A DNA stretch of 35,569 nucleotides from Candidatus Gallionella acididurans (lineage in GTDB: Bacteria; Pseudomonadota; Gammaproteobacteria; Burkholderiales; Gallionellaceae). The DNA lies in contig LSLI01000018.1 of the NCBI GenBank assembly GCA_001577345.1, forward strand, positions 1 to 35,569, in the 5' to 3' direction. Both the position numbers and the translations under genes were made by a program. The notes under the pieces were generated by a model, which was given only the letters and a program-made list of their open reading frames with translations, was not told the DNA's origin and made no database searches. Each line of letters begins with the position of its first letter. Within the stretch, counting starts at the first letter, position 1. Shown in pieces: positions 16,603-35,569 of the stretch.

Positions 16603-17007
16603 TTACCCCGGGTTGAACCAGGCCAGTTTTTCCCGGAGCGTGACGACGCCGCCAACAATGATCAGGGTCGGTGCATGCAGTTTTTCAGCCAGGGCAATTT
16701 CCGGCAGAGTTTCAAGCGTTCCGGTGACGACGCGCTGATTTTGCGTGGTGCCTTGTTGCACGATCGCGGCCGGAGTATTGCCCGGCAAACCGTGCGCGAC
16801 CAGTTCGCCGCATAGTGTCGCCAAACCGTGCAAGCCCATATAGACCACAACAGTCTGCCTGGGCCGGGCCAGTGCATCCCAATCAAGTTTCATGCTGCCG
16901 TCTTTCAGGTGGCCGGTCACGAATATGCAGGACTGCGCATGGTCGCGGTGGGTCAGCGGAATGCCCGCGTAGGCGGAAACGCCGGAAGCCGCGGTGATGC
17001 CGGGCAC
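16603..17007 (-). CDS. cysG: Siroheme synthase CysG, C-terminal fragment (methyltransferase part)
   Basis: The 3' part of a gene that is split by a frameshift. An ATG-initiated piece of 134 residues begins [24 protein letters not shown], the typical second half of uroporphyrinogen-III C-methyltransferase. In-frame homology extends upstream to the G run at 17079-17085 ([13 protein letters not shown] would follow if one G is added). It ends [17 protein letters not shown], the normal end of the domain. Joined to the upstream part, the protein would be about 457 residues, the usual CysG length. On its own this piece lacks most of the SAM-binding part and should be inactive. Confidence 0.85.
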
Positions 17008-17042
17008 GACCTGGAACAGGATGCCATGTTCGGCGAGCGTCT

Positions 17043-19988: not shown

Positions 19989-19996
19989 TTCAGGTT

Positions 19997-21907: not shown

Positions 21908-22278
21908 TTGGACTCCCCTTGCACCAAAGAGGAACTGCGCTTGCTGGAGTGGCATTCGAAACAATCGATCTTGACCGCTTCGAAACTGTGACAGCCTTCG
22001 CAGAAACTGTCGGCACGGCCGGTCACGCTGTTGTCGCGCAGGCTTGCGTGGCATTCGATGCAGTTTTTCAGGCTGAATTTCCCGCCGCGCATGCCCTGGT
22101 GTACCGTTTCATCGCGCTGCTGAAAAAGTACGCGCATATGGTTCTTGCGCATCCATTGCGGATCGGCCACGCACTGGCCGCCTTTGCCTATATCCAGCTT
22201 GGGCATGCCGTAAATTTCCGTGGCAGTTGCAGAAGCACACATGCATAGTATTGCCAGCAGAGCGAACAATTTTGACAT
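21904..22278 (-). CDS. dsrJ: DsrJ, periplasmic triheme cytochrome c of the DsrMKJOP complex
   Basis: 124 residues from the ATG at 22278 (a GTG three codons earlier is possible). A signal peptide (MSKLFALLAILCMCASATA) is followed by three CxxCH heme motifs, CIECH, CEGCH and CFECH, as expected for DsrJ. The preceding part has the family-typical GKGGQCVADPQWMRKNHMRVL, where Cys and Met/His are candidates for the unusual heme ligand known from Allochromatium DsrJ. It is 22 bases after dsrL. The small size, heme number and position are diagnostic. Confidence 0.94.
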   Translation of the reverse strand: MSKLFALLAILCMCASATATEIYGMPKLDIGKGGQCVADPQWMRKNHMRVLFQQRDETVHQGMRGGKFSLKNCIECHASLRDNSVTGRADSFCEGCHSFEAVKIDCFECHSSKRSSSLVQGESK

Positions 22279-22299
22279 TTCTATCACTCGCCCATTTGA

Positions 22300-24267
22300 T
22301 TAATCGCCCAGCCCCATCTGGATGTATCCGGTCGGGCACACATCCGCGCAAATATGGCAGCCGATACACTTGTTGTAATCGGTGTCGACATAGCGGCCCA
22401 GCGTGGCTTTGGCTTTGGGTACGCGGAATACGGCAGTTTGCGGGCAGTACACCACACAGTTGTCGCATTCGAAGCACATGCCGCAGCTCATGCAGCGTTT
22501 GGCCTCCGCTACCGCCTGGTCCTGGGGCAGCACGCCGAGGCGGTCCTGGAAGTTACCCAGCGCGGACTCCTTGCTCAGGGTAATCACGTTGCGTTTGTTG
22601 CGCGCGACGATGGAAAAATGGCCCAGGAACAATTTATCGTGCGGGATCACATAGCGATCCGAGCGATTGTCAAAATTGTGCACCGCGACATTGGTTTCGA
22701 ATGTGCCGCGCAACGGTTCATGCACCTCCTTGACCTCGAGTCCCTTTTCCACCATCTTGCGCATCAGGTCGAATTGGTGGGCATCAATCTTGGGGCGTTT
22801 CTCCAGGTCCTTGCCGAGCAGATAATTGTGTATGCCATCCGCCGCGATGGAGCCGTGGCCGATTGCCGTCGTCAGCAGATGCGGTCTTATGATGTCCCCG
22901 CCGGCGAACACGCCCTTCTGTCCGGCGACCAGGTAATTGCGATCCGTCGAGACAGCGCCCTTGCCGTTATTGAATTCTTCCAGCCCGGTAAAGTCCACCG
23001 CCTGCCCGATTGCCGACACAATAAGATCGGCGGGAATATCTTCCTCGGTCCCTGCTATGTTCTTGACCTCCAGCTTGCCGCCGACCAGCTTTGCCTCGCA
23101 CTGGATGATGCGCAACGCGGTGGCGCGTCCATCCGCGCCGCGCACGATGCCTATTGGAGCCAAGCTGCCGCGGATCGCGATACCTTCTGCGAGCGCCTGT
23201 TCTATTTCATGCTTGTTCGCCTGCATCTTGTCGATGGCAAAGATCGATGTCAGTGTCACTTCCGCACCCTGCTTGGCCGAAATCTCTGCCACGTCATGAG
23301 CGACCTGGCCTGCGATGGCCTGCTCGAAATCTGTAGGTTGGGATTGTTCAAGATGACCGAGGCGCCGTGCGACTGTCGCCACGTCGATGGAGGTGTCACC
23401 GCCACCGACTACCACTACGCGTTTGCCAACATGCTGGAGACGACCGTCATTGAACGCCTTGAGGAAGGCGGTAGCCGTCACCACGTTGGGTGCAGCGCTG
23501 TCTTCAAGTGGCAAGGCACGTCCGGCCTGAGCACCCATGCCGAGGAAAACGGCATCGAAGTCCTTGCGGATCTGCTCCAGAGTAATGTCCCTGCCCACGC
23601 GGCATTTCATCCTCGTCTTCACGCCCAGATCAGTGATGCGCTGTATTTCCGCATCCAGCACTTCGCGCGGCGTACGGAAACCCGGAATGCCGTAGCGCAT
23701 CATGCCGCCGAGATGTTCGTGCTCGTCGAACACGGTGACTTCATGACCCTTCAGGGTGAGCTGGTAGGCGCAGGACAAACTGGCCGGGCCGCCGCCGATG
23801 ACTGCAACTTTTTTGCCGGTGGGTTTGGCATCGGTATGGTATGCGAGGTTGTTGGCAATCCCGTATTCGCCGAGAAAGTGTTCCACCGAGTTGATGCCGA
23901 CATGGTCTTCAAGCGCATTACGATTGCACCCGGTCTCGCAGGGTGCAGGACAAACCCGGCCCATCACCGACGGAAAGGGATTGGCTTCGGTCAAACGCCG
24001 GAACGCATATTCCTGCCAGGGCATGGCCGGTTTGCCGTCGGCCCCGACCGGCGGCTTTTCGGTGCCGCGCACGATGGCCAGATAGCCGCGTATATCCTCG
24101 CCCGCCGGGCAACTGCCCTGGCAAGGCGGCGTGGACTGGATGTAGGTCGGGCATTTGTGCGTAAAGCTTGCCTGCATGATTTTTTCGCTCAGGCGGCCGA
24201 CTTTATTGTCCCCGTCTTTATAGCGGCGGAAGGTGATTTTTTGAGTTGTTTCAGTTGTTGATGACAT
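22300..24267 (-). CDS. dsrL: DsrL, NAD(P)H:acceptor oxidoreductase of reverse sulfite reduction
   Basis: 655 residues, related to the small subunit of glutamate synthase. DsrL associates with DsrAB and marks pathways running toward sulfur oxidation. N-terminal cysteines (C39, C49, C53 region PPCQGSCPAGEDIRG; then CPAPCETGCNR) bind Fe-S clusters. An FAD-binding motif (VIGGGPASLSCAY) is near residues 154-166 and a second nucleotide-binding motif (VVVVGGGDTSIDVA) near 287. The C-terminal ferredoxin domain has CMSCGMC near 591 and CIGCHIC near 634; this extension separates DsrL from plain GltD. Its ribosome binding site is GGAGG. The domain set fits the DsrL-1 type of sulfur oxidisers; the exact subgroup was not tested. 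Confidence 0.95.
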   Translation of the reverse strand: MSSTTETTQKITFRRYKDGDNKVGRLSEKIMQASFTHKCPTYIQSTPPCQGSCPAGEDIRGYLAIVRGTEKPPVGADGKPAMPWQEYAFRRLTEANPFPSVMGRVCPAPCETGCNRNALEDHVGINSVEHFLGEYGIANNLAYHTDAKPTGKKVAVIGGGPASLSCAYQLTLKGHEVTVFDEHEHLGGMMRYGIPGFRTPREVLDAEIQRITDLGVKTRMKCRVGRDITLEQIRKDFDAVFLGMGAQAGRALPLEDSAAPNVVTATAFLKAFNDGRLQHVGKRVVVVGGGDTSIDVATVARRLGHLEQSQPTDFEQAIAGQVAHDVAEISAKQGAEVTLTSIFAIDKMQANKHEIEQALAEGIAIRGSLAPIGIVRGADGRATALRIIQCEAKLVGGKLEVKNIAGTEEDIPADLIVSAIGQAVDFTGLEEFNNGKGAVSTDRNYLVAGQKGVFAGGDIIRPHLLTTAIGHGSIAADGIHNYLLGKDLEKRPKIDAHQFDLMRKMVEKGLEVKEVHEPLRGTFETNVAVHNFDNRSDRYVIPHDKLFLGHFSIVARNKRNVITLSKESALGNFQDRLGVLPQDQAVAEAKRCMSCGMCFECDNCVVYCPQTAVFRVPKAKATLGRYVDTDYNKCIGCHICADVCPTGYIQMGLGD

Positions 24268-24287
24268 TGCCTGCCTCCAATTAATTG

Positions 24288-25817
24288 TTATTTCTCACCC
24301 AGCCTGATTGCGTTGCTGACCAGCTGGTGAACACCACCGACCATTCTTCTGTCAAATCCGTATATAGGCATCACCTTGCTGAACTGGGTCTTGCAGATTG
24401 CGCAGATGACTGCCATGAAATTAACCCCGTGTTCATCCGAGACCTGTTTCAACACTTCCATGCGCGGCAAGGCACCCTTCACGCGCAAGTCCATCAAATC
24501 GTCGGTCAGCAGCCCGCCGCCGCCGCCGCAGCAGAATGTTTTTTCGTGAGTGGTGCTCGGATCCATCTCATGGAAATGGTTGGCCACCGACTTGATGATA
24601 TTGCGCGGAATATCGAACTGGCCACCGGGATATCCGCCCATGCTGGAACCGCGCGCCACGTTGCAGGAATCATGGAAAGTGATGATGTGCTTGTCGTTGG
24701 CTTCCTTGTCGAGGGACAGCGCGCCACGTTCGATCATGTCCCAGGTGAATTCACAGATGTGCGTCGGCTGCCTGTAACGGTGATCAAGTTGTTGCTGCAG
24801 CATCTGGGCGAACTTGTCATCCGGATCGGCGCCCTCGCCCACGCCGCTCAGGGTATTCCAGAAACTGTATGCCACGCGCCATGCATGGCCGCATTCGCCG
24901 ACCACGATGCGCTTTACGCCCAACTCGAGTGCGGCTTGGCGGATACGCAACGCCACTTTGCGCAATTGCTCATAATTGCCGATGAACATTCCAAAATTTG
25001 CTGCCTCGGATGACATGGACGACAGCGTCCAGCTGGTACCTGTCGCGTGGAATACCTTGGCATAACCGATCAGGCTGTCGATATGCGGTTCTGCAAAAAA
25101 ATCCGCCGACGGCGTGATCAACAGAACTTCCGCACCCTTGATATCGATCGGGAAGCGCACATCAATACCGGTGGCTTCCTTGACATCCTCTTCCAGCCCC
25201 TCCATCGTATCGATCAGCGCCGGGGCGGGCAAACCGAGGTTATTGCCGATCTTGTGCACTTTGCCGATGATTTCGATGTCGTACTTCTGGCCATAGCCCA
25301 CGGAATCCAGAATATCGCGTGCCGCCATCGTGACTTCGGCGGTATCGATTCCATACGGGCAAAATACCGAACAGCGTCTGCATTCTGAACATTGATGGTA
25401 ATAGTTGTGCCACTCGTCCAGCACTTCGCGGGTCAGGTCGCGCGCGCCTACAAGTTTGGGAAACAGCTTTCCCGGTAAAGTGAAATACCGCCGGTACACA
25501 CTGCGCATCAAATCCTGCCGCGCGACCGGCATATTCTTCGGATCCTGCGTGCCGATGAAATAATGGCATTTATCCGAACAGGCTCCGCAATGCACGCAGC
25601 TGTCCATGTACACCTTGAGCGAACGGTACTTGCCAAGCAGGTCGCCCATTTTGGCAATGGCTTTGTCATGCCAGTCGTCCACCAGCTTGCCCGGAAAGCC
25701 CAACGCCTCATTCATTTTCTCACCGGAAACATAAGGACCGCTTCCCTCCATCGCACCCGGCTTCAATGCGGGAATGATGGGAATAACACGGTAAGCCGGT
25801 GCAGTAATTTCCGCCAT
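24288..25817 (-). CDS. dsrK: DsrK, Fe-S subunit of DsrMKJOP (heterodisulfide reductase-like)
   Basis: 509 residues, cytoplasmic side of the complex and the site thought to act on DsrC trisulfide/disulfide. Two ferredoxin-type motifs are seen: CVHCGACSDKCHYF near residue 73 and CSECRRCSVFCPYGI near 143. The C-terminal part has HdrD-like CCG features, HDSCNVAR near 381 and CCGGGGG near 427, which build the special [4Fe-4S] site. It follows dsrM with only one base between stop and start, and GGAG lies upstream. Length and motif order match DsrK. Confidence 0.95.
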   Translation of the reverse strand: MAEITAPAYRVIPIIPALKPGAMEGSGPYVSGEKMNEALGFPGKLVDDWHDKAIAKMGDLLGKYRSLKVYMDSCVHCGACSDKCHYFIGTQDPKNMPVARQDLMRSVYRRYFTLPGKLFPKLVGARDLTREVLDEWHNYYHQCSECRRCSVFCPYGIDTAEVTMAARDILDSVGYGQKYDIEIIGKVHKIGNNLGLPAPALIDTMEGLEEDVKEATGIDVRFPIDIKGAEVLLITPSADFFAEPHIDSLIGYAKVFHATGTSWTLSSMSSEAANFGMFIGNYEQLRKVALRIRQAALELGVKRIVVGECGHAWRVAYSFWNTLSGVGEGADPDDKFAQMLQQQLDHRYRQPTHICEFTWDMIERGALSLDKEANDKHIITFHDSCNVARGSSMGGYPGGQFDIPRNIIKSVANHFHEMDPSTTHEKTFCCGGGGGLLTDDLMDLRVKGALPRMEVLKQVSDEHGVNFMAVICAICKTQFSKVMPIYGFDRRMVGGVHQLVSNAIRLGEK

Positions 25818-25818
25818 G

Positions 25819-26544
25819 CTAGTTCTCCGATTCCATTCGTTTCGCCCAGGCTGCGATATGGCGTTTTTCGCGGGGATTGTCTACCTGGTTGCGGCCGGGT
25901 GAGAAAAACAACCCGGGTGCATGCAACAACTTGCTGATCGGGAAAATCATCATCAATAGCGCGACCAGTGATAGATGCACATAAAGACCGATGCTGGAAG
26001 GCAGGGCCTGCAAGTCGAAATGCATCAAGCCAAGCATGAATCCCTTAACCGCTATCACATCGGTATGCACAAAAAAACTCATCGTCAGACCGGATATCGC
26101 GATCGCCATGAAAAGTGCGAGCATCAGGTGGTCGGAGGGAGTGGAGATATAGCGGATGCGCTCGACAAAAATTCGCCGCGCCCATAATCCAGCAACACCG
26201 GCCAGCATGGTGATGCCGGCATACGTGCCAAACGGCTGGACGAACGCAACCCAGGGCCAGACTGGGTCGGTGAAATAACGCAGGTGACGCAACAGAACCA
26301 GTGCCAGGCTGACATGGAACAACCACCCCAGGCCCCAGGTCCACAGATTCGCCTTGAAAAGGCTTTCAAACAGGAATACTTCCCGCATCATGCGCAACAC
26401 TACGCCGCCGGTGTTCATTGGTGCGGGCGTAGTAGGTATTTTAAGCGGTGCCGGAGTGCGGGTATAAACACCGATACGGTAAAACGTGCCCACGACAAAC
26501 ACCAAAGTGACAAAGTAAAACAGGATTGCAAATAAGGTGCTCAT
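25819..26544 (-). CDS. dsrM: DsrM, cytochrome b subunit of DsrMKJOP
   Basis: 241-residue inner-membrane protein of the NarI-like type with five to six helices (LFAILFYFVTLVFVVGTFYRIGVY at the start). His residues in GWLFHVSLALVLLRHLRYF and LYVHLSLVALLMMIFPISKLLH are candidate heme b ligands. DsrM exchanges electrons between the quinone pool and DsrK. It is of the short form found in sulfur oxidisers. There is no obvious ribosome binding site directly before the ATG. It sits 38 bases after dsrC. Confidence 0.93.
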   Translation of the reverse strand: MSTLFAILFYFVTLVFVVGTFYRIGVYTRTPAPLKIPTTPAPMNTGGVVLRMMREVFLFESLFKANLWTWGLGWLFHVSLALVLLRHLRYFTDPVWPWVAFVQPFGTYAGITMLAGVAGLWARRIFVERIRYISTPSDHLMLALFMAIAISGLTMSFFVHTDVIAVKGFMLGLMHFDLQALPSSIGLYVHLSLVALLMMIFPISKLLHAPGLFFSPGRNQVDNPREKRHIAAWAKRMESEN

Positions 26545-26582
26545 CTAGGATCAGTTGCAGTATATAAACTCAAATATCAGGA

Positions 26583-26918
26583 TCAGACGCAACCGGTTGG
26601 CTTGGGCAATCCGGCGATCTTGCAAGCCTGCTTGCCCGGACCATATGGGAACAATCCATACAGATACTCGCTGTTGCCCTTGTCGGCTCCCAGCTTTTTC
26701 CCTATCGCTTTGGTCAGCACGCGAACGGCCGGAGCGATTTGGTATTCTTCAAAATACTCGCGCAGGAAATTGATGACTTCCCAATGCTGCTCTGTCATAT
26801 CTACATTTTCAGTCTTGGCGATGTATTCGGCGATATCCTTATTCCAGTCAGCCAGATTGACAAGATAGCCTTCTTCGTCGGTTTCATATGATTTTCCTTC
26901 GACTTCGATGTTGGCCAT
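26583..26918 (-). CDS. dsrC: DsrC, sulfur carrier with both redox cysteines
   Basis: 111 residues, AAGGAG ribosome binding site. DsrC carries the substrate sulfur as persulfide or trisulfide between DsrEFH, DsrAB and DsrK. The conserved C-terminal arm KQACKIAGLPKPTGCV has both functional cysteines (C99 and the penultimate C110), which distinguishes true DsrC from TusE (one Cys). The core shows EQHWEVINFLREYFEEYQIAPAVRVLTKAIG. It follows dsrH as in Allochromatium. A second, cysteine-free family member is encoded at 31620-31949. Confidence 0.97.
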   Translation of the reverse strand: MANIEVEGKSYETDEEGYLVNLADWNKDIAEYIAKTENVDMTEQHWEVINFLREYFEEYQIAPAVRVLTKAIGKKLGADKGNSEYLYGLFPYGPGKQACKIAGLPKPTGCV

Positions 26919-26944
26919 GGTAATTCTCCTTAATGTTATTAAAG

Positions 26945-27241
26945 TTAAAGCCAGGATTGGCAGTTTTTATTGGTCGTGGTGAGATCGACGAAGCCGCCGT
27001 AATCGACCGGTGAAACACCATCGATGATGCGATCGCCAAATCCGCGCGCATCAAGGTCCGGCTGCAAAACATAAACTTTGCAGCGTCCCATCGCCTCGCG
27101 TATTTTATCCTCAAACACATTGCCGGATGTGGCGGCGTAGACCGCGTCTTCAATAAGCAAAATGTCACCCGATTGAACCACGCGCAAACAGCTGTCGAGC
27201 GCGCAGTTCGTCAAGGGTGATTTGTTGATGATATGCAACAT
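26945..27241 (-). CDS. dsrH: DsrH, subunit of the DsrEFH sulfurtransferase
   Basis: 98 residues of the DsrH/TusB family. DsrEFH forms a hexamer that passes sulfur to DsrC. The sequence has the family start MLHIINKSP and SCLRVVQSGDILLIEDAVYAA. Cys at 13 and 18 lie in the region of the conserved DsrH cysteine. The ribosome binding site is GGGAGA. It lies 14 bases after dsrF and 26 before dsrC. Confidence 0.94.
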   Translation of the reverse strand: MLHIINKSPLTNCALDSCLRVVQSGDILLIEDAVYAATSGNVFEDKIREAMGRCKVYVLQPDLDARGFGDRIIDGVSPVDYGGFVDLTTTNKNCQSWL

Positions 27242-27255
27242 TTAACGGCTCTCCC

Positions 27256-27621
27256 CTAGAAGCTCAAGACCACGTCTTGCTGATTCATCAACTCGCCCAT
27301 TTCTGCGCGCCCCAACACGGTCACATCCACCAGCAAGTCTTCCTCGCTGAGTCCGCGTGCCTGCATCGATTCCTTTTCCACATACAATTTCTCGATGTCG
27401 TAACCTTCCAGCGCGCGATAGGCCGGCGAAAAGTTTTTTGTCGCAATACCCTTGGTTTGTTGCCCCTTTTTAAGCTGGTATACGCCGTCATCCAGAAATA
27501 CCAGGGAAACATCCTGATCGAATGCAGCGGTGATCAGCACCACCTCAAGCGACTCCAGCGCGTATATCGTGCCATGCGGAGCCTTGCGGTTAACGAACAT
27601 GAATTTCTTGATTTCACTCAT
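27256..27621 (-). CDS. dsrF: DsrF, subunit of the DsrEFH sulfurtransferase
   Basis: 121 residues of the DsrF/TusC family: KKFMFVNRKAPHGTIYALESLEVVLITAAFDQDVSLVFLDDGVYQL is spread over the first 60 residues. It contains no cysteine, in line with the view that DsrF has a structural rather than catalytic role. AAGGGGG upstream of the ATG overlaps the dsrE stop. It lies between dsrE and dsrH in the usual order. Confidence 0.94.
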   Translation of the reverse strand: MSEIKKFMFVNRKAPHGTIYALESLEVVLITAAFDQDVSLVFLDDGVYQLKKGQQTKGIATKNFSPAYRALEGYDIEKLYVEKESMQARGLSEEDLLVDVTVLGRAEMGELMNQQDVVLSF

Positions 27622-27630
27622 CCCGCCCCC

Positions 27631-27990
27631 TTAATCGCCGAACACGATCAAACGATCTGTCTTGACGCCCGCTTCCACCATCTGTCCCAGACCGGAAATC
27701 CTGAAACCTTTCGCCAGGTTTTCCTCCTTGATGCCGCGTCGCAAAGCCGCCGCCACACAAACAACAAGATCCACGCCATGCTCTTCGTTAAGCTTGCCCC
27801 AGCGGTTCACAATATGCCGGTCATCCTGCGGGGGCTCTGTCAGCTTCGACGCGTTGTTCACACCATCGTGATAAAAAAACACGCGCCATACTTCATGGCC
27901 TTTTTCAATGGCGGCCTTGCAGAACAGGTAGGCCGTATCACTGGCCTGGTGCTGGTAAGGCCCTTCGTTAACAACAATCCCGAATTTCAT
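27631..27990 (-). CDS. dsrE: DsrE, catalytic subunit of the DsrEFH sulfurtransferase
   Basis: 119 residues from the ATG at 27990 (MKFGIVVNEGPYQHQASDTAY), preceded by GGAG. A longer frame would start inside dsrB and is not used. The active-site cysteine is in DLVVCVAAALRRGI, the position that carries the persulfide in DsrE/TusD. It starts 14 bases after dsrB. It belongs to the DsrE family proper, not DsrE2, since there is no membrane segment. Confidence 0.94.
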   Translation of the reverse strand: MKFGIVVNEGPYQHQASDTAYLFCKAAIEKGHEVWRVFFYHDGVNNASKLTEPPQDDRHIVNRWGKLNEEHGVDLVVCVAAALRRGIKEENLAKGFRISGLGQMVEAGVKTDRLIVFGD

Positions 27991-28004
27991 GCGGCCACTC
28001 CAGG

Positions 28005-29099
28005 TTAAAAGCGTATATGCGTTGAAGCATTGAACGTGGAACGAGAGCCGCGCCAATCGTCGATCAGATACTTGGTGAACGGCAATTCGGTCTTCTCGAA
28101 GAAACGCGGCCAGCCGATGCGGTCTATCCAGTCAGCCATGCGCTCCCATGGGCGCGCATCATCCTTGTAAACATTCAATATCCGCTTCACCACAACGCTG
28201 ACTTCGGGCCATCTTGGCGGATTATTGGGCAGGCCAGACGCGACCATTTTCATGAAAGTCGGTTTGCCGCGGGCGTTGGAATTTTTGCCGCCCACCCAGA
28301 TCGCCAGCTTTGAATACTCCGGATCATTGATCTGCATCGGCGGGCAGGGAGGATAGCAGGCCCCGCAGCACATGCATTTGGTCTCGTCGATTTCGAGGGA
28401 AGGTTTGCCATTCACCATGGCCGGGCGTATCGCCGCGACCGGGCAACGCGCCACTACCGTAGGACGCTCGCATACGTTGGCAACCAGATCGTGATTGATC
28501 ACCGGCGGCTTGGTATGCTGCACGATGATCGCAAGATCAGCCTGACCGCCGCAATTTATCTCGCAGCACGAGGTCGAAAGATGAACGCGATTGGGCATTT
28601 CCTCGCGCTTGAATTCAACGATCAGATCATCCATTAATGACTTAACCACACCCGAAGCATCCGTACCCGGAATATCGCAGTGCAGCCAGCCCTGGGTATG
28701 TGAAATCATCGAAATGGAGTTGCCGGTACCGCCCACCGGGAAACCGTGTTTTTCCAGTTCAGCGATCAACGGAGCGACCTTCTCCTCCTTGGACACCATG
28801 TACTCGATGTTGGAGCGGATCGTGAAGCGCACGTGACCTTCCGCGTACTTGTCGGCAATATCGCACAACAAGCGGATGGTTCCCACGTCCATCTGCCGCT
28901 GCGTGCCGGCACGCACCGTCCAGATCTGGTCGCCGCTGTGCGCCACGTGATGCAACACTCCCGGGCGTGGGCGGTCATGATATTTCCAGTTGCCGTAGTT
29001 CTTCGCCATCAACGGGTGCAGATACTTCTTGTTGTCCGGCACCCCGGTTTCCTTGGGCTTGCGCTTTGCGGCGGGTTTTTCTTGAACTGCTTGGTTCAT
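28005..29099 (-). CDS. dsrB: Reverse dissimilatory sulfite reductase beta subunit DsrB
   Basis: 364 residues, GAGGAG upstream. DsrB pairs with DsrA in an alpha2beta2 enzyme; in this direction it oxidises DsrC-bound sulfur to sulfite in the cytoplasm. Siroheme/[4Fe-4S] ligands are expected in STSCCEINCGG with an upstream Cys in TQGWLHCDIPG. A ferredoxin domain carries CMCCGACYPPCPPM. The end, WRGSRSTFNASTHIRF, is typical of DsrB. It lies 11 bases after dsrA. Confidence 0.97.
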   Translation of the reverse strand: MNQAVQEKPAAKRKPKETGVPDNKKYLHPLMAKNYGNWKYHDRPRPGVLHHVAHSGDQIWTVRAGTQRQMDVGTIRLLCDIADKYAEGHVRFTIRSNIEYMVSKEEKVAPLIAELEKHGFPVGGTGNSISMISHTQGWLHCDIPGTDASGVVKSLMDDLIVEFKREEMPNRVHLSTSCCEINCGGQADLAIIVQHTKPPVINHDLVANVCERPTVVARCPVAAIRPAMVNGKPSLEIDETKCMCCGACYPPCPPMQINDPEYSKLAIWVGGKNSNARGKPTFMKMVASGLPNNPPRWPEVSVVVKRILNVYKDDARPWERMADWIDRIGWPRFFEKTELPFTKYLIDDWRGSRSTFNASTHIRF

Positions 29100-29110
29100 T
29101 TCATGTCTCC

Positions 29111-30418
29111 TCAGGCGGCTTGCTGCTTTTTGATTTTCTGGGCGTTGATCTTGGCAACTTCCTCATCCCAGCCATCGGTGCGGACATATGGATTGGTGCG
29201 GGGGGTGGAAACCATGTTCGGATCGACTTCGACTTCCACGCCTTCCAGGAAATTGATCAGGCCGATACGCTCGATCATCTCGCCGGTACGCTCGTGCTCG
29301 AGCGCATTTTCCGCAAAAAAGTCTATGGTGCGCTGTCCCAGGTCAACCAGTTTCTGCACATCCTCATCCGTTTCAAGTTTCATGAAAGGAATAATGACCG
29401 TGCCCATCAGGCCGCCGATCTTCAGTGTGCTCTTGCCGCCGACCAGCACGCTCGCACCCTTGTCCTTGCCGGGAGCCAAAGCACCGGTCATCACATTGAT
29501 ACAGTGCATGCAACGCACGCAATCGTGGTTGTCGATCTCTATCGCGTGAGTGTCACTGATCGCAACGCTGGAGATACTCGGACCGGTTTTGACATTCTTG
29601 ATCTGCTTGAGCTGGAAAGTCTTGGTCGGGCAACGGGCCACAACGTCGTTCACCAGCTCGTCCATGCCATGCTTGGCAAACCACTGCTTGGCCATCGCTT
29701 CATCGGTGCGAATGTTGTCGCGCCAGGTTCCGATCACCGCCATGTCGGCACGCTGCACCGAATTCATGCAGTCGTTCGGACAGCCGGAAAACTTGAACTT
29801 GAACTTGTAGGGCAAGGAGGGACGGTGTATGTCATCCAGAAAAGTGTTCAGGACGCTGCGCTGCGCCTTGGCTTCGTCGTAACAGGACTGCTCGCAACGC
29901 GCCGCCCCCACGCAGGACATCGAGGTGCGCACTGCCGGTCCCGCGCCGCCGAGGTCAAAACCCATCTCGTTGATCTCGTCAAAAGCCTTCTGCACGTTGT
30001 CGGTGGTCGCGCCCTGGAACATGATGTCACCGGACTGGCCATGGAACGCAATCAGACCGGAGCCATGCTTCTCCCAGATGTCGCAAAACTGGCGCAGCGT
30101 ATCGGTATCGTAGTGCATGCCGGCGGGAGGCATCACGCGCAGGGTATGAAATTCAGTGCAATCCTCGTAAATCGGCTTGCCGGCTTCATCCTTCAGTTCG
30201 GTGAAGCGCGGGATAATCCCGCCGCCGTAACCAAATACTCCGACCGTACCGCCCTTCCAGTAGCCCTTCTTGGTCCGGTATGAAGTCTCAAGCTGACCGA
30301 GCAGGTCGACAACATAATCTTTATCCTTGGCCAGTTCTTTCAATCCAGTCACAAAACTGGGCCACGGACCATCCTCGAGTTGATCCAGGTTTGGGGTATC
30401 ATGCATCTTCTTAGCCAT
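29111..30418 (-). CDS. dsrA: Reverse dissimilatory sulfite reductase alpha subunit DsrA
   Basis: 435 residues, first gene of the dsr operon, with AAGGAAG before the ATG. The coupled siroheme-[4Fe-4S] motifs are complete: CVGAARC (C169, C175) and CPNDC (C213, C217). A ferredoxin domain follows with CVRCMHC (C300, C303, C306). The reverse (oxidative) type is inferred from the co-encoded dsrL, dsrEFH and dsrN and the proteobacterial context; phylogeny was not run. The upstream region carries two operator-like palindromes. Confidence 0.97.
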   Translation of the reverse strand: MAKKMHDTPNLDQLEDGPWPSFVTGLKELAKDKDYVVDLLGQLETSYRTKKGYWKGGTVGVFGYGGGIIPRFTELKDEAGKPIYEDCTEFHTLRVMPPAGMHYDTDTLRQFCDIWEKHGSGLIAFHGQSGDIMFQGATTDNVQKAFDEINEMGFDLGGAGPAVRTSMSCVGAARCEQSCYDEAKAQRSVLNTFLDDIHRPSLPYKFKFKFSGCPNDCMNSVQRADMAVIGTWRDNIRTDEAMAKQWFAKHGMDELVNDVVARCPTKTFQLKQIKNVKTGPSISSVAISDTHAIEIDNHDCVRCMHCINVMTGALAPGKDKGASVLVGGKSTLKIGGLMGTVIIPFMKLETDEDVQKLVDLGQRTIDFFAENALEHERTGEMIERIGLINFLEGVEVEVDPNMVSTPRTNPYVRTDGWDEEVAKINAQKIKKQQAA

Positions 30419-30757
30419 AATAATCTTCCTTTCAGTCGCGTTGCCCGTAGCTTGCTGCTGGCAAACGATTTAATGACCCGGCAGAGACGGGGGAATTGGT
30501 GATCCGGCTGAACTCATCCGCTGTGATACTGCGGTATGTCCATCTTCGTTGATCTATTAGCATCCTACGATATATTGCCTTGTGCATTCCATCACCCTTA
30601 GCGGGTATCTTCAATAACCCTTAAGGGTAGTAGTGTGCCTTCCCCCAGTAGTATTCCAATCAGAAGCAGATTAAAGATACACTGGGACGCATAAAATGAC
30701 TCGTTCAGAGTGATCTGCAAGGGGTGCCGTCATTTAACCTGATCAAGGGCAACTGTA
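30419..30757. promoter_or_regulatory. Divergent control region between dsrA and the cas6-like operon
   Basis: This 339-base stretch separates two operons reading away from each other and holds no convincing gene. A 60-codon reverse frame (30432-30614) has no family resemblance. Two related inverted repeats are visible, ACCCTTAGCGGGT at 30594-30606 and ACCCTTAAGGGT at 30617-30628, followed by AGTAGT direct repeats. On the plus side a possible -10 box TAAAAT lies near 30692-30697 but has no good -35 box, and none is clear on the minus side, which would suit activator-dependent promoters (inference). Confidence 0.55.
30594..30628. promoter_or_regulatory. Pair of ACCC/GGGT palindromes, putative operator
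   Basis: The perfect 12-base palindrome ACCCTTAAGGGT (30617-30628) and the looser ACCCTTAGCGGGT (30594-30606) have centres about 22-23 bases apart, roughly two helical turns, so a dimeric regulator could occupy both on one face. AGTAGT recurs at 30629-30634 and 30647-30652. The regulator is unknown; the half site resembles those of NarL/LuxR-type response regulators only loosely. Confidence 0.5.
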
Positions 30758-30982
30758 ATGACACAAATCAGCGAATTAGCCAGATTCAAGGTTCCTTTGG
30801 GAAGCCAGGAGATCGAATTGCAGCAGATAGATCATGTCGAGGGCGGCATGAGCCTGATGCGCATACGCATTCGGGAAGGCAAACGTTTTACCATTTTCGA
30901 CATTGATCCTGACACCGCTCAACATTGGGCCGCGGCGATGCAACGCTGGGCTGATACACAGAAACTGGCGGCAAATGACTGA
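30758..30982 (+). CDS. Small protein of unknown function, first gene of the divergent operon
   Basis: 74 residues, ATG preceded by AAGGG. The sequence (MTQISELARFKVPLGSQEIE, then LQQIDHVEGGMSLMRIRIREGKRF spread over strands, and FDIDPDTAQHWAAAMQRWADTQK) suggests a small beta-sheet followed by a C-terminal helix. There is no cysteine, signal peptide or membrane segment. I do not recognise the family. Its 3' end overlaps the start of the cas6-like gene by 8 bases (ATGACTGA), so the two are translationally coupled and probably work together. Confidence 0.7.
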   Translation: MTQISELARFKVPLGSQEIELQQIDHVEGGMSLMRIRIREGKRFTIFDIDPDTAQHWAAAMQRWADTQKLAAND

Positions 30983-31589
30983 CAACAATCTTCCCGACAT
31001 GGTCGATATAGTATTCGATCTGGACGGCGGCACGATACCCGCCGACTATCGCTTTGCGCTCTGGGCCGCATTGTTGCGCCTGGTCCCCCGGTTCGCGGAA
31101 GAAAAACGGGTCGGGGTGCTGCCGTTACGCTCGACAGTCAATAGTCAGGGTATGTTGCTTGCCAAACGCGCCAAGCTGGCAATACGCATGCCGACCACAT
31201 TTGCCGAGTCTGTCGCATCCAGTTTGGCCGGGCAGCAACTCGATATAGCGGGAAGCTCTATGCGCGTCGGTGCTGCGAAGACGCGCACTATCCAGCCCTA
31301 CCCGACTATTCACGCCCAACTGGTAACCGGTTCCAGTGATGAAGTGCTGTTCGTGGAAGACATCGGCAAACAAATGGCGGAGTTGGGCGTTACGGGAAAA
31401 TTGATCTGCGGCAAGCGCCTGTCCGTCAGCAGCGGCCAAAGAGATATCCATGGCTACAGTCTGGTTCTGCATGACCTGAAGCCGGAAGCATCAATACAAT
31501 TGCAATATGCCGGGCTGGGTGATGACCGCCAATTTGGTTGCGGCATTTTCGTACCCTACAAAGTCATCACCGGCTTGAGTGAAGATTAA
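30975..31589 (+). CDS. Cas6/Cmx6-like protein without a CRISPR array
   Basis: 204 residues from the ATG at 30975. It resembles the Cas6/Cmx6 family (type I-MYXAN): VDIVFDLDGGTIPADYRFALW at the N terminus, VGVLPLR, LAKRAKLAIRMP, and at the C terminus HGYSLVLHDL, SIQLQYAGLGDDRQFGCGIFVPYK. The glycine-rich GCGIFVP loop (188-194) is the Cas6 RNA-binding signature. Where I recall the family having PADH, this protein has PADY (Tyr25), so the likely catalytic His of the first ferredoxin-like fold seems replaced. No CRISPR repeats or other cas genes are present in the window. The next gene is a DsrC homologue. An RNA-binding role, perhaps on tRNA or another structured RNA, is inference. Family assignment is from memory of the motif pattern. 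Confidence 0.75.
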   Translation: MTDNNLPDMVDIVFDLDGGTIPADYRFALWAALLRLVPRFAEEKRVGVLPLRSTVNSQGMLLAKRAKLAIRMPTTFAESVASSLAGQQLDIAGSSMRVGAAKTRTIQPYPTIHAQLVTGSSDEVLFVEDIGKQMAELGVTGKLICGKRLSVSSGQRDIHGYSLVLHDLKPEASIQLQYAGLGDDRQFGCGIFVPYKVITGLSED

Positions 31590-31619
31590 GTTTTTTCCTT
31601 TTTTTGATGGAGGTCAGAG

Positions 31620-31949
31620 ATGGGCTATACCGTAGCAGGCAGAGAAGTTGAAACCGATGATGATGGCTACTTGCTGGAACCGGATTATGGCGACGAAATT
31701 GTAAACGTCATCGCCGCGGCAGAAGGCATTGAGCTGACACCCAGGCATTGGGAAGTCGTAAATTTCATGCGCGACCAGTACCGCGAACACGGGCACACGC
31801 CGAATTTCCGCAATATGCTGAAAGGCGTCAATGAATTCTGGCCCGAGGCGGACAGCAAAGCGCTGTATGATTTATTTCCGACCGGCCCGGCCAAGCAGGG
31901 TGCAAAAGTCGCCGGTCTGCCCCAGCCCTATGGCAAGGGCGGCTATTGA
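31620..31949 (+). CDS. DsrC/TusE-family protein lacking both C-terminal cysteines (RspA-like)
   Basis: 109 residues, GGAGGT ribosome binding site. The fold is clearly that of DsrC: DDDGYLLEPDYGDEIVNVIA, TPRHWEVVNFMRDQY, and the C-terminal arm AKQGAKVAGLPQPYGKGGY. Aligned with the DsrC encoded at 26583-26918, the first arm Cys is Ala95 and the last one is missing; the protein has no cysteine at all. It therefore cannot carry persulfide. Cysteine-free family members have been called RspA and proposed to be regulatory. It lies 30 bases after the cas6-like gene and before a tandem TusA gene, diverging from the dsr operon, so a regulatory or scaffold role in sulfur trafficking is plausible. Confidence 0.88.
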   Translation: MGYTVAGREVETDDDGYLLEPDYGDEIVNVIAAAEGIELTPRHWEVVNFMRDQYREHGHTPNFRNMLKGVNEFWPEADSKALYDLFPTGPAKQGAKVAGLPQPYGKGGY

Positions 31950-32017
31950 GGCCCATCCGCCTCAAAAGCTGATGCTTCAGGAATTAAGATGTTTAAAAAA
32001 ATGACAGGACATCCAAC

Positions 32018-32503
32018 ATGAGTACTAAAGACTTGCATGCCAATGTAAAGCTGGATATGCGCGGCCAGACCTGCCCCGCACCGCTGCTCGGTGCCAAGCG
32101 CGTGGTCGACGACCTGAAAAAGGAACAGGTTCTGCTGCTGATCTCGGACTGCCCGGGCACCAAGGACGATCTTTTTTCATGGGCGGAGCAGACCCACAAC
32201 AAGGTGCTGAAAACGGAAACCATGCCGGATGGCGGCACAGGCTACTACGTCATGAAAGGCAAGGGAGAATCGCACAAGGCAAATGTCATACTCGACATTC
32301 GCGGCGTGCATTGCCCGGGACCCATCGTGGAAGCCAGGAAGCTGCTGAACGGAATGAAAGTCGGCGAGACCCTCAAGCTCATCAGCAACTGCCCCGGTAT
32401 CCGCTCCGACATCGTCGGCTGGGCAGACACGACCAGTGTAAAGATTGTCAGCACGGTCGAAACGGCCCCGGGCGAATATGAATTTTTCCTGCAAAAGGGC
32501 TGA
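32018..32503 (+). CDS. Tandem TusA-family sulfur carrier protein (two domains)
   Basis: 161 residues made of two TusA (SirA/YedF) domains, about residues 8-80 and 88-160. Each has the sulfur-carrying CPxP motif at its first helix: MRGQTCPAPLLGAKR (C19) and IRGVHCPGPIVEAR (C99). Each also has a second cysteine 26 residues later in a CPG motif, SDCPGTKDD (C45) and SNCPGIRSD (C125), where TusA usually has Asp-Pro. The internal repeat, 80 residues apart, indicates duplication. TusA proteins relay persulfide sulfur for tRNA thiolation, molybdopterin and, in sulfur oxidisers, to DsrEFH and DsrC. The 68-base gap upstream holds only a weak ribosome binding site. Confidence 0.92.
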   Translation: MSTKDLHANVKLDMRGQTCPAPLLGAKRVVDDLKKEQVLLLISDCPGTKDDLFSWAEQTHNKVLKTETMPDGGTGYYVMKGKGESHKANVILDIRGVHCPGPIVEARKLLNGMKVGETLKLISNCPGIRSDIVGWADTTSVKIVSTVETAPGEYEFFLQKG

Positions 32504-32526
32504 CCGGATCTGCCGGCTGACCTGAC

Positions 32527-33123
32527 ATGCGCATCAAAAGCCAATGGTTCAAAAGTGACCGCGTAAAGACTCCGCAAGAGATTGCCGGGGCGATGGCGTT
32601 CACGATTTGGCGCATCGCCGACAATGCGCTGAAGAATACCCGCAGGGCTAATTTCGAGATTGCCATCGGCCCGCAGTATTTTTCCTTTATCACCGAATTC
32701 CTGGTGTTCCTGATCCAGGTCGCGGACCGTATCGCCCATCGCCAGCTGTCCGCGGACGACAGATTTGCATTCACCAGCACTTTGGCCAATCGCGTGGCGG
32801 AAACCCTGGCGGAAAATCAAAGCCGCCTGATGAATGACAGCATCACAAATCACAAGCAGCTTTTTATCGACAAGCTCAACCAGCGCGCCGGAGAATATGC
32901 CGAGTTCAACTATGGCGCTGACGGCCCCGAATTCGCCTTCACCCGCTACCTCGCGTTTTGCATGCGCGAAGTCATGGACGAAAAGGATGTCGAATGGGTG
33001 ATCGACCAGATGATGAGCATAGAGGCACCGGGTGCCGTGGACATGGTGGAGAAAACCATGCAGGACCTGTTTGCAAAGGAAGCCCCGCAGACACGCATCC
33101 GCAAGGTCACCAGCGGCGATTGA
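32527..33123 (+). CDS. Helical protein of unknown function
   Basis: 198 residues, no family recognised. It is mostly helical and soluble: TPQEIAGAMAFTIWRIADNALKN, then FITEFLVFLIQVADRIAHRQL, then RVAETLAENQSRLM and YLAFCMREVMDEKDVEWVIDQM. The middle hydrophobic helix (YFSFITEFLVFLIQVADRI) is too polar for a clear membrane span. One cysteine only. No DNA-binding motif is evident. It lies 23 bases after the tandem TusA gene and 27 before the dioxygenase gene, so it is almost certainly in the same operon. It may be a binding partner of one of the sulfur carriers (inference). Confidence 0.75.
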   Translation: MRIKSQWFKSDRVKTPQEIAGAMAFTIWRIADNALKNTRRANFEIAIGPQYFSFITEFLVFLIQVADRIAHRQLSADDRFAFTSTLANRVAETLAENQSRLMNDSITNHKQLFIDKLNQRAGEYAEFNYGADGPEFAFTRYLAFCMREVMDEKDVEWVIDQMMSIEAPGAVDMVEKTMQDLFAKEAPQTRIRKVTSGD

Positions 33124-33150
33124 TGCGCTCCGGGTTGCCCTGACCGTCTC

Positions 33151-34026
33151 ATGCAAAATCCGTTCGATCTCGACAACCCCGCGGCTTACCTGCACTGGCG
33201 CGACCGCAAGCTGGCCCGCGCTATCTGTGGTGCTGGCGAACTGGTCGTCGAAGTCAACAAACCCGACGCCCTGACTGTCGCTGAACATGCCGCGCTGCTG
33301 GATCGTTGCCAGCGCGGCAACATGGCGATTTATGCAAGCCACGCTGCGGCTGACGAAGATACCGTGCGCCGGTTCGGGCTGCAGTTCGGGCTGGCCAGCC
33401 TGGACGCCAACTGGCTGGCCGGCGAACAGGGCATTACGCGCGTCACCGTATGTGCAGATGACGGGCAGCGCCAGGCTTATATTCCCTATACCGACCGCGC
33501 CATCAAATGGCACACCGACGGCTATTACAATCCGCCTGAACGACTGATACGCGGCATGGTGATGCATTGCGTGCAGAGCGCCGGGCAAGGCGGCGGGAAT
33601 CGCCTGCTGGACCATGAGATCGCTTACCTGATGCTGCGCGATGAAAATAGCGATTTCATCCGCGCACTGTCCGCAGCGGACGCGATGACGATACCCGAAC
33701 GCACCGACGAACAGGGTGTGGCGCGCGCCGCGCAGACCGGCCCGGTGTTCTCGGTCGACCCGGCCAGCGGGACACTGCACATGCGCTATACCGCCCGCAC
33801 CCGCAGCATAATCTGGAAACAGGACGCCGCCACATTGGAGGCCGTCGCCGCTCTGGAAAAACTGCTGGCTTCCGCCCTGCCCCACATCCACAGCGTGACG
33901 CTCGAGCCCGGCATGGGGTTGTTGTGCAACAACGTGCTGCATGATCGCGCAGCCTTCAGCAATGAACCGGACAGCCCGCGCCTGCTGTTTCGGGCGCGCT
34001 ACCACGAGCGCATCGCGGCCAGCTGA
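33151..34026 (+). CDS. TauD/TfdA-family 2-oxoglutarate and Fe(II)-dependent dioxygenase
   Basis: 291 residues, last gene of the divergent operon. The iron-binding triad is visible: H121 and D123 in IKWHTDGYYN, and H264 in NNVLHDRAAF. The 2-oxoglutarate Arg is probably in RLLFRARYHER near the C terminus. The N-terminal part (VVEVNKPDALTVAEHAALLD) matches TauD-like folds. Such enzymes hydroxylate small molecules, often releasing sulfite from sulfonates such as taurine, but the substrate here is unknown and no sulfonate transporter is seen. Its location with sulfur carriers suggests an organosulfur or RNA/protein-bound substrate (inference). Confidence 0.85.
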   Translation: MQNPFDLDNPAAYLHWRDRKLARAICGAGELVVEVNKPDALTVAEHAALLDRCQRGNMAIYASHAAADEDTVRRFGLQFGLASLDANWLAGEQGITRVTVCADDGQRQAYIPYTDRAIKWHTDGYYNPPERLIRGMVMHCVQSAGQGGGNRLLDHEIAYLMLRDENSDFIRALSAADAMTIPERTDEQGVARAAQTGPVFSVDPASGTLHMRYTARTRSIIWKQDAATLEAVAALEKLLASALPHIHSVTLEPGMGLLCNNVLHDRAAFSNEPDSPRLLFRARYHERIAAS

Positions 34027-34067
34027 CCGCTGCAATTCCGGGCCGCCCATATTTCATCGCCGGCAAA

Positions 34068-34095
34068 AAGCCCGCCATCTTTCGACGGCGGGCTT
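34068..34095 (-). terminator. Terminator between the dioxygenase and fadL-like genes
   Basis: A 9-bp stem (AAGCCCGCC at 34068-34076 with GGCGGGCTT at 34087-34095) surrounds a 10-base loop. Read on the minus strand it is followed by a T run, so it mainly terminates the fadL-like gene. On the plus strand the tail is weak, but it may also act on the converging operon. Confidence 0.85.
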
Positions 34096-34121
34096 CAGGT
34101 TTGCAACAATCGGACTGGCGA

Positions 34122-35372
34122 TTACCAGCCGTAAGAAATGCCGATCGAGTCCTCGTGCATGCTGATGTTTGCATTGCCACCACCAAACCCGGCGGGGATC
34201 GATCCGGAACCGTTGACGGTCTGCTGGAAGGCATGTACATAAGCCACCGTAATTTCAGACTTGTTCGCCAGCGTCCAGGTTGCGCCCAGCGACAAATGGT
34301 TCTGCACCACGCCCGGCGCCAGGATGTTCAACAACGACTGGTTGCTCGGTATCTGCTGGTTGTTATGGTTGAGTCCGCCGCGCAGTGTCAGCTGGGAATC
34401 GTAGACATAGCTCATCCCGAGTTTGAACGCCGTCATGTTCTGCCAGCCGAAGCCCGGACCATTTGAAGCTCCCAGCGGGGATGCTTGCGGAAAGGTATTG
34501 CCAACGGAAGCGACGCCCGAATAATCGATCTGCTCGACATCGAATGCTACCGTGGTTGCCTGCGTCGCCTTGACAGCAATACCCACCCCATAGTTGGCCG
34601 GGATGTCGAAGTTGCCCTGGCCGGCAAACAGGCCGCTGTAACTGCTGAAACTGCTCATCTTGGTCTTGCTCTGGTAGGTCGCGCCCAGCGTTACCATAGG
34701 CGTGATTTCCCCGGTCCAGCCCACCTTCAGGCCGTAGCCGGTGGATGTGTCCGTGCCGTTATCGCTCATCGCAGCTGAATTGCTGGACATTGAACCCAAT
34801 GCCGGCCCGTTTAACCCGGTAGCGCTGAACATCTGGTAGGCCAGGTTCAGCGAGACGCCTACCGAATTGGTCGCGTTGAGTTTCTTAGACCAGGTCGGCG
34901 CAATGAACAATTGTTCCAGGTTGATACCGAGGTTGCCGCTGGCGCCAACGGCGCCGAACGGGTTGTTGTTGTACTGGGTGTTCATGCCGCCGTTGCCGTA
35001 GACAACCACGCCCAGTGCGGTGTCGTTGCTGATCATCTTGTTATAGCCAAAATCGGGAATGAAGAAATTGCTCCTGCCATTGCCGTCATAAGAACCATTC
35101 AGGCCAGCACCATTGCCAGTAATATCGGCGTTGCGGGTAGGCTTGAACCAGGTCAGCGCGAAATCGGTGCGATCGCCCACCATAACCATCCCGGCCGGAT
35201 TGGCGGCAGCCGCGAAAGCGTCCTGGGGCAGCGCAATGCCGGCGCCACCCATGGCTTCGGTTTTCGGGCCTACGCCGATCGGAAAGTAACCGTTGGTGGC
35301 ATGCGCCAGCGGAGACACCATTACACCTGCGGTCAATAGCGAAACAAGCAACTTGTTTTTTTTCATTTTCAT
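34122..35372 (-). CDS. FadL/OmpP1/TodX-family outer-membrane transport protein
   Basis: 416 residues from the ATG at 35372 (MKMKKNKLLVSLLTAG), where a signal peptide begins; an in-frame start at 35426 would cover the promoter. Cleavage is probably after AHA, giving the mature NGYFPIGVGPKTEAMGGAGIALPQDAFAAAANPAGM, whose N-terminal hatch motif (TEAMGGAG...ANPAG) is the family hallmark. Alternating strands (FALTWFKPTR, SVGVSLNLAYQMF, LGATYQSKTKM) form the 14-stranded barrel, ending in an aromatic W. FadL proteins take up hydrophobic molecules. In a sulfur oxidiser, a role in uptake of hydrophobic sulfur compounds is conceivable but unproven. Confidence 0.9.
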   Translation of the reverse strand: MKMKKNKLLVSLLTAGVMVSPLAHATNGYFPIGVGPKTEAMGGAGIALPQDAFAAAANPAGMVMVGDRTDFALTWFKPTRNADITGNGAGLNGSYDGNGRSNFFIPDFGYNKMISNDTALGVVVYGNGGMNTQYNNNPFGAVGASGNLGINLEQLFIAPTWSKKLNATNSVGVSLNLAYQMFSATGLNGPALGSMSSNSAAMSDNGTDTSTGYGLKVGWTGEITPMVTLGATYQSKTKMSSFSSYSGLFAGQGNFDIPANYGVGIAVKATQATTVAFDVEQIDYSGVASVGNTFPQASPLGASNGPGFGWQNMTAFKLGMSYVYDSQLTLRGGLNHNNQQIPSNQSLLNILAPGVVQNHLSLGATWTLANKSEITVAYVHAFQQTVNGSGSIPAGFGGGNANISMHEDSIGISYGW

Positions 35373-35390
35373 GACGATACCCCCTCGATA

Positions 35391-35419
35391 ATTATAGTAA
35401 AGAACCCCGTCGTTACGAA
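35391..35419 (-). promoter_or_regulatory. Candidate sigma70 promoter of the fadL-like gene
   Basis: A perfect TATAAT (35396-35391 on the minus strand) is preceded, after 17 bases, by TTCGTA (35419-35414). Transcription would begin about 10-15 bases before the ATG region at 35372, so the leader is short. Confidence 0.5.
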
Positions 35420-35432
35420 CAGCCATTGCAAC

Positions 35433-35569
35433 TCAGACAAACAAACAGATATCGGTATCTCCGGCAAAACCCATGAACATCGCCGCACCGCCGTACTCAC
35501 ATTGTTCGATGAATTCCTTCTTGTCGAATTCGAACAGGTCTACCGTCATCTGGCAGGCGATGAATTTCA
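35433..35569 (-). CDS. DsrE2-like sulfur-trafficking protein, 3' end only
   Basis: Only the last 45 codons are in the window; the gene continues past the right edge. They read KFIACQMTVDLFEFDKKEF, then CEYGGAAMFMGFAG and a final DICLFV. This fits the C terminus of DsrE2/DsrE-family proteins, where ACQM(S/T)xD carries a conserved cysteine and the protein ends in (N/C)LF(I/V). DsrE2 proteins usually lie in rhd-tusA-dsrE2 clusters that deliver sulfur to the Dsr or sHdr system. Whether the missing N-terminal part has the expected membrane segments cannot be seen. Confidence 0.75.
   Translation of the reverse strand, partial: KFIACQMTVDLFEFDKKEFIEQCEYGGAAMFMGFAGDTDICLFV

Follow-up and report, generated by a model that had tools for sequence, protein, structure and literature searches.

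What does a gene of the Cas6 family, which by its name belongs with clustered regularly interspaced short palindromic repeats (CRISPR), do beside a dsr operon? The question is raised by contig LSLI01000018.1 of Candidatus Gallionella acididurans (35,569 nucleotides, the whole stretch that we analysed, here called the window), in which a Cas6-family gene lies within a group of six close-packed plus-strand genes at positions 30758-34026. The group is divergent from dsrA, the first gene of a dsr operon that is transcribed toward lower coordinates. Open reading frame (ORF) listing and family profiles confirmed the six genes, their common strand and their divergence from dsrA, as given in a preliminary description of the window, which had also suggested a search for co-occurrence of these families near dsr genes in other genomes.

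Co-occurrence with dsrA and gene order

Conserved co-occurrence near dsr was strongly borne out, both by presence and absence across genomes and by the synteny of the loci. Among 275 genomes sampled from the host's class, the Gammaproteobacteria (beta-type organisms included), 90 had a match to the Cas6 profile PF09559 (a single match in all but one). With dsrA called at E ≤1e-50, which includes six fragments under the curated cut-off, both genes were present in 85 genomes, Cas6 only in 5, dsrA only in 5 and neither in 180 (Fisher p = 4.6e-58, a guide only, as the genomes are related). Nine of the ten mismatch genomes are contig-edge cases: in the five with Cas6 only, the contig ends within, or at most about 400 bases past, the TauD-like gene on the dsr side, and in four of those with dsrA only (G104, G117, G199 and G076) it ends within dsrA, or at most 2 kb from it, on the side where Cas6 is expected. 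The tenth genome, G203 (86% complete), may be a true exception, as its dsrA has a flank of more than 12 kb on that side without the module. A further sample covered 259 genomes of the phylum and had Cas6 in four (the host itself and three of the same order), all of them with dsrA. Since 36 further genomes outside the class had dsrA without a Cas6 of this type, the tie is confined to one class.

The features of the locus, with one dsr operon gene for comparison, are as follows.

30758..30982, plus strand: DUF6967 small protein, 74 residues (PF22295, E 2.9e-32)
30975..31589, plus strand: Cas6-family (Cmx6-like) protein, 204 residues (PF09559, TIGR02807)
31620..31949, plus strand: DsrC paralogue, here called DsrC0, without cysteine and ending in KGGY (PF04358, 115.4 bits)
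32018..32503, plus strand: tandem TusA with two Cys-Pro motifs (PF01206, two stretches)
32527..33123, plus strand: all-helical protein of no named family, here called Hel (AlphaFold2 mean confidence, pLDDT, 91.4)
33151..34026, plus strand: TauD-like Fe(II)/2-oxoglutarate oxygenase, dsrQ (PF02668, 65.5 bits against a cut-off of 27)
30419..30757, no strand: intergenic region at the divergence of dsrA and the module
29111..30418, minus strand: dsrA, first gene of the dsr operon (TIGR02064, 500.6 bits, above cut-off)
26583..26918, minus strand: DsrC sulfur carrier with two C-terminal cysteines, for comparison (PF04358, 160.7 bits)

We compared 121 loci: the window, 40 gamma-type loci selected among the 90 by their contig position and spread, and 80 named beta-type loci, which are the best 80 of at least 572 confirmed relatives. 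The named loci come mostly from Thiobacillus, Hydrogenophilales, Gallionellales, Sulfuricella and other Betaproteobacteria-type entries; some are identified to phylum or class only and one is labelled Rhizobium. Counts of dsrA and of the upstream small gene refer to loci with at least 3.6 kb on the dsrA side, with the dsrA midpoint within 4.5 kb. A divergent dsrA stands beside Cas6 in 64/64 beta-type and 32/38 gamma-type loci, and a gene for DUF6967 or for a small protein of another family, f8, lies upstream of Cas6 in 61/64 and 34/38, respectively (a single family for DUF6967 and f8 was rejected, with a profile comparison probability of 5%). DsrC0 comes after Cas6 in 72/75 beta-type and 32/40 gamma-type loci. 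Hel lies no more than 4 kb away in 67/67 beta-type loci; in the gamma type the limit is 8.7 kb and the count 19/30. The TauD-like gene is downstream in 59/67 beta-type loci and upstream in 29/38 gamma-type ones. The usual order is thus DUF6967-Cas6-DsrC0-[transferase]-Hel-TauD in the beta type and TauD-f8-(f19)-Cas6-DsrC0-f13, with Hel further on, in the gamma type, with exceptions in both.

As a core member of the module, Cas6 has two steady partners, one being the small protein (DUF6967 or f8) and the other the DsrC paralogue with the KGGY end; Hel, DsrQ and, in most beta-type loci, a transferase are added. Even in genomes of 1.0-1.1 Mb (G037, G136 and G245) dsrA, TauD, f8, Cas6, DsrC0, f13 and Hel are kept together. 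In L039, L052 and L071, f8-Cas6-DsrC0 occurs without TauD nearby. No gene fusions between module members were found. Estimates of dN/dS were rough, with an unexpectedly high value for dsrA, and carry no weight here. The grouping is not due to chance, since the larger part of the set is found again next to dsrA in the majority of the 120 other loci, and we are nearly certain that the module functions as a true unit linked to oxidative Dsr.

Gamma-type loci (for example L042, 10326-16144) hold more recurring genes after DsrC0: two 2-oxoglutarate-Fe(II) oxygenases (f14 and f16), a DUF6866 protein (f15), small f13, f17 and f18, and a protein with a Glycos_trans_3N domain (f20, TrpD-like). Outside the class, four loci with oxidative-type dsr order (L202-L205), probably from Alphaproteobacteria, have TauD(DsrQ)-f8-DUF6967 divergent beside dsrA, followed by CysG in three of the four. 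These four genomes gave no PF09559 match and no Hel, and no DsrC0 was present in the stretches read. In the likely history, an older DsrQ-f8-DUF6967 set was extended in the gamma/beta line, where Cas6, DsrC0 and Hel were added to it.

Within the window, the cas6 start is best placed at the ATG at 30975, and not in a longer ORF beginning with TTG, because the reading frame then overlaps the end of the DUF6967 gene by 8 nt (ATGACTGA, 30975-30982). Spacers of 30, 68, 23 and 27 nt follow the genes for Cas6, DsrC0, TusA and Hel, respectively. Neither consensus-pattern promoters (5 found, 2.7 expected) nor terminators (7 found, 4.4 expected) were clearly above chance, and Rfam gave no match up to E 0.5 in window positions 18000-35569, including the stretch that separates dsrA from the module. 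Further along, the gene for CysG (siroheme synthase) is split in two minus-strand ORFs at 16603-17975, as by a frameshift of the gene or the assembly, with 17043-17975 covering profile positions 1-303 of 450 and 16603-17007 covering positions 329-449.

The Cas6-family protein and the CRISPR question

The window protein exceeds by far the cut-offs of PF09559 (184.5 bits against 26.7) and TIGR02807 (147.9 against 98.85) and is matched by six PADLOC Cas6 models, and its profile finds a type I-B Cas6 (PDB 8fcj, chain B) over the whole domain at E 3.3e-27. A glycine-rich loop is common to the window protein, where it is C-terminal and reads GLGDDRQFGCGIF, and to type I-B/I-MYXAN Cas6 (Cmx6) proteins such as 8fcj. 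The neighbourhoods differ: the latter stand among cas genes, and the dsr-linked proteins among dsr genes. By pattern, the loop is present in 120 of 121 loci; 80 of these had been retrieved by a pattern holding part of the loop together with an HK motif, and the loop is found in 39 of the 40 gamma-type loci, which were retrieved without that motif. The HK motif itself (HK or QK after GCGxFxP) totals 119/121, a partly circular figure given the retrieval of those 80 loci; the fair count is 39/40 gamma-type proteins as compared to 0/7 plasmid relatives. In the window protein, the H of this motif is replaced by Tyr.

The alpha-1 position is also Tyr in the window protein, and is His in 39/40 gamma-type, 31/81 beta-type and 7/7 plasmid proteins. 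A His in helix alpha-1 is a candidate catalytic residue of Cas6. Since the CRISPR Cas6 of 8fcj aligns Asn there, the position may not be decisive for catalysis. The alignments took in chosen subsets (A1, 28 of 41; A2, 36 of about 100; A3, 33 of 80; A4, 25 of 108).

The dsr-linked proteins form a clade apart (support 0.996) from the comparison set of seven relatives on cyanobacterial plasmids, six of which adjoin cas3. The seventh, a Cmx6-family gene on Gloeobacter morelensis plasmid pGMOR1 (L156, 3974-4765, plus strand), is without annotated cas neighbours; a PAPS-reductase-family gene lies within about 1 kb, followed by a cupin gene, and this is possibly a second non-CRISPR use of the family. 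No relatives were confirmed in viral contigs with a pattern based on the HK motif.

Could the window gene nonetheless be a stray or relict CRISPR gene, whose product matures CRISPR RNA in trans? The TIGR02807, PADLOC and Pfam names would suit this explanation. However, there is no repeat array in window positions 27000-35569, and the host, with a single PF09559 gene, has a Cas6 of another family, PF08798, on a separate contig (C93) at most 2 kb from a cas1 match. The tie to cas1 across the 275 genomes is weak (43/90 genomes with Cas6, 64/185 without, p = 0.048), in contrast to the near-perfect tie to dsrA. A CRISPR context was therefore not found, judging by the array, the dsr neighbours and the cas1 tie, the models of cas3, cas7 and cas8 not having been searched in the loci. 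The window Cas6 gene is not CRISPR-linked, and the stray-gene explanation, largely refuted, retains next to no probability.

Partners of the Cas6-family protein

DsrC0 belongs to the DsrC family by TIGR03342 (97 bits against a cut-off of 53.5) as well as by PF04358, and its profile finds DsrC (PDB 1yx3) at E 1.8e-31, but these proteins form a group separate from DsrC. In both DsrC and TusE, the sulfur-accepting Cys lies in the last six residues. DsrC has Cys second to last in 94/94 proteins, whereas DsrC0 has a KGGY end (108/116 relatives), and none of these 108 has a Cys among its six final residues. The window protein has no cysteine at all, and so neither the C-terminal nor the upstream Cys of DsrC; among KGGY proteins, the upstream Cys is found at its aligned place in 19/75 of the beta type and 0/33 of the gamma type, and in 75 of the 108 the final 109 residues are free of Cys altogether. 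From these residues, DsrC0 would be unable to join the normal sulfur relay.

A passage in PMC5944118 reports that DsrC of Allochromatium vinosum binds DNA upstream of dsr, and a regulatory DsrC relative therefore has precedent. The paper also mentions THSYN_22565, a DsrC-like gene with a number near those of its dsr cluster, which is perhaps of the DsrC0 type. A DsrC paralogue with the KGGY end, of the DsrC0 type, is also encoded on a contig of the viral collection IMG/VR, IMGVR_UViG_3300032087_002997 (L214, 5974-6315, plus strand), whose other ORFs look phage-like. Published passages describe some viral dsrC without one or both Cys (PMC4164917) and count five with neither (PMC8190135); some phage dsrC may thus be DsrC0 rather than sulfur carriers. 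An extra DsrC/TusE-type gene, with one C-terminal Cys, was seen on the opposite strand in L118 (15201-15494) and L151 (15248-15544), both on the minus strand, with a TusA gene further along.

The slot after DsrC0 in the 81 beta-type loci is filled by TusA in 23, by an MST-type rhodanese in 49, by both in none and by neither in 9, so that a persulfide transferase is present in 72. All 23 TusA tandems have the Cys-Pro-x-Pro motif in both domains. In 38/40 gamma-type loci, the same strand up to 4.5 kb from Cas6 gave neither TusA nor rhodanese. The tRNA thiolation system TusBCD-E-MnmA uses TusA and TusE, and the module likewise has TusA domains and a protein of the DsrC/TusE family; it differs from that system in that its DsrC-family protein lacks the terminal Cys and in that TusA is present in 23 of the 81 beta-type loci.

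By family and dsr association, the TauD-like oxygenase next to dsrA can be identified with the known DsrQ; the WHxD motif is present in 97/97 proteins and the distal His, by pattern, in 94/97. A passage in PMC7596348, citing Lenk et al. 2012, describes dsrQ as a TauD-like gene beside dsr operons, so that the co-occurrence of dsrQ with dsr is already published; that passage does not mention Cas6, a DsrC paralogue, DUF6967 or Hel alongside it. Hel gave no Pfam or NCBIfam match; among 36 relatives no Pfam family was matched by more than three (best E 0.0011), and a Foldseek search had a best E of 0.34. The assembly factor Cbp3/UQCC1 was considered as a candidate for its fold. The fold predicted for DUF6967, four strands and a helix, appears most like nucleic-acid-binding domains of the PUR/PC4 type, with no sequence similarity found to PUR, PC4 or Whirly domains.

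In the open-access literature (subscription papers lay mostly outside the search), no account of dsr clusters with Cas6 came to light, nor any of the module beyond dsrQ, although an earlier description elsewhere is possible. Where Cas6 is mentioned in the searched parts of sulfur-oxidiser genome papers, it stands in CRISPR paragraphs or rule lists, and the words Cas6, TauD and dsrQ are absent from a 2024 study of the history of Dsr oxidation. The gene group beyond dsrQ is apparently undescribed.

What the module may do

The reading that we prefer, with a probability of roughly 40%, sees in the module an accessory system of oxidative Dsr that binds RNA and serves regulation or assembly. It comes near to the RNA-sensing control of sulfur oxidation that the preliminary description had called conceivable. 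Such a system would match the production or assembly of DsrAB and its partners to the supply of sulfur. Cas6, together with the PUR/PC4-like DUF6967, would bind RNA, most simply the dsr transcript; DsrC0 would dock through its conserved arm at sites used by DsrC (DsrAB, DsrEFH or DNA) and, barred from the normal relay, would read or block the state of the system; and the transferase and DsrQ would supply an input dependent on sulfur and on oxygen or 2-oxoglutarate. Both the identity of the bound RNA and the docking site are guesses. A more specific and rather doubtful version is a metabolic ribonucleoprotein switch, for which a CRISPR-type Cas6 protein would have been recruited as the RNA-binding core, and in which Cas6 and its PUR-like partner hold dsr mRNA while the KGGY DsrC mimic senses free or sulfur-loaded DsrAB.

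The main rival to RNA binding is a maturation factor made of protein only, in which the Cas6 fold is a scaffold that no longer binds RNA and, with DsrC0, the small proteins and DsrQ, aids siroheme loading into DsrAB, or its protection or repair. The link to CysG in the other-class loci speaks for it, but the glycine-rich loop has been kept and DUF6967 resembles a nucleic-acid-binding fold, and we hold this rival to be unlikely. If RNA is bound, cleavage is less likely than binding alone. In the processing model, a Cas6-like endoribonuclease would cut hairpins of the polycistronic dsr mRNA and so set relative gene levels. Processing fits the Cas6 family and the prevalence of the alpha-1 His in gamma-type proteins, and long GC-rich hairpins indeed recur at the dsrA-dsrB and dsrC-dsrM gaps of many species (for example in L133, L126 and L122), with little evident sequence conservation across species. 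Stems of at least 9 pairs are present in 17/32 gamma-type and 32/59 beta-type dsrA-dsrB gaps, and in 22/33 and 41/58 dsrC-dsrM gaps. As control we had 30 other-class loci, of which only the four with full oxidative-type dsr order (L162-L165) are a fair comparison; four gamma-type loci without Cas6 are contig-edge cases and not a true control. Three of the four Cas6-less oxidative loci also have dsrA-dsrB stems, of 11-12 pairs (dsrC-dsrM stems of at least 9 pairs in one of the four, too few to weigh), and beta-type dsrA-dsrB stems are commoner without the alpha-1 His (24/40) than with it (8/28). The window, whose Cas6 has Tyr, has no such stem in its dsrA-dsrB, dsrB-dsrE and dsrC-dsrM gaps (11, 0 and 38 nt). 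Folding scores (calculated on the gamma-type loci and on one in three of the beta-type loci), inspection and the control thus gave no clear specificity of these hairpins as Cas6 targets, the comparison of His with stems ran counter to the idea, and processing appears improbable.

The preliminary description had considered a sulfur-dependent RNA modification conceivable. In such a modification, akin to tRNA thiolation, sulfur would pass from TusA or rhodanese through the DsrC-like protein to RNA held by Cas6. The frequent transferase of the beta-type loci, with both motifs intact in the TusA tandems, and the upstream Cys kept in some beta-type KGGY proteins would agree with this. The proposal nevertheless finds no support in the comparison: the terminal Cys is missing from all KGGY proteins and every Cys from that of the window, TusA occupies a minority of the beta-type slots, nearly all gamma-type loci lack a nearby transferase, and there is no MnmA-like gene among the six; we consider it very improbable. 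No more can be said for a gene group that serves DsrQ in releasing sulfite from sulfonates. The TauD family, the invariant WHxD motif and the speculation on DsrQ in the passage of PMC7596348 favour it, but it leaves Cas6, DsrC0 and Hel unexplained, as well as the three loci without TauD nearby, and its probability is slight.

For annotation, the locus points to a systematic mislabel, in which a lone Cas6 gene is scored as CRISPR (I-MYXAN) by Pfam, NCBIfam and PADLOC. It also offers a new way to read those "DsrC" proteins that lack the terminal Cys, at least one of them phage-borne, as regulators or mimics and not sulfur carriers. If the ribonucleoprotein switch were true, the synthesis of DsrAB would be coupled to its assembly and substrate supply, and the DsrC mimic of the phage-like contig would let a phage interfere. 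The pathway concerned is central to the sulfur cycle and is a major bacterial energy pathway; the preferred reading, if true, would be a clean case of an RNA-handling protein of a CRISPR family working in core energy metabolism and not in defence.

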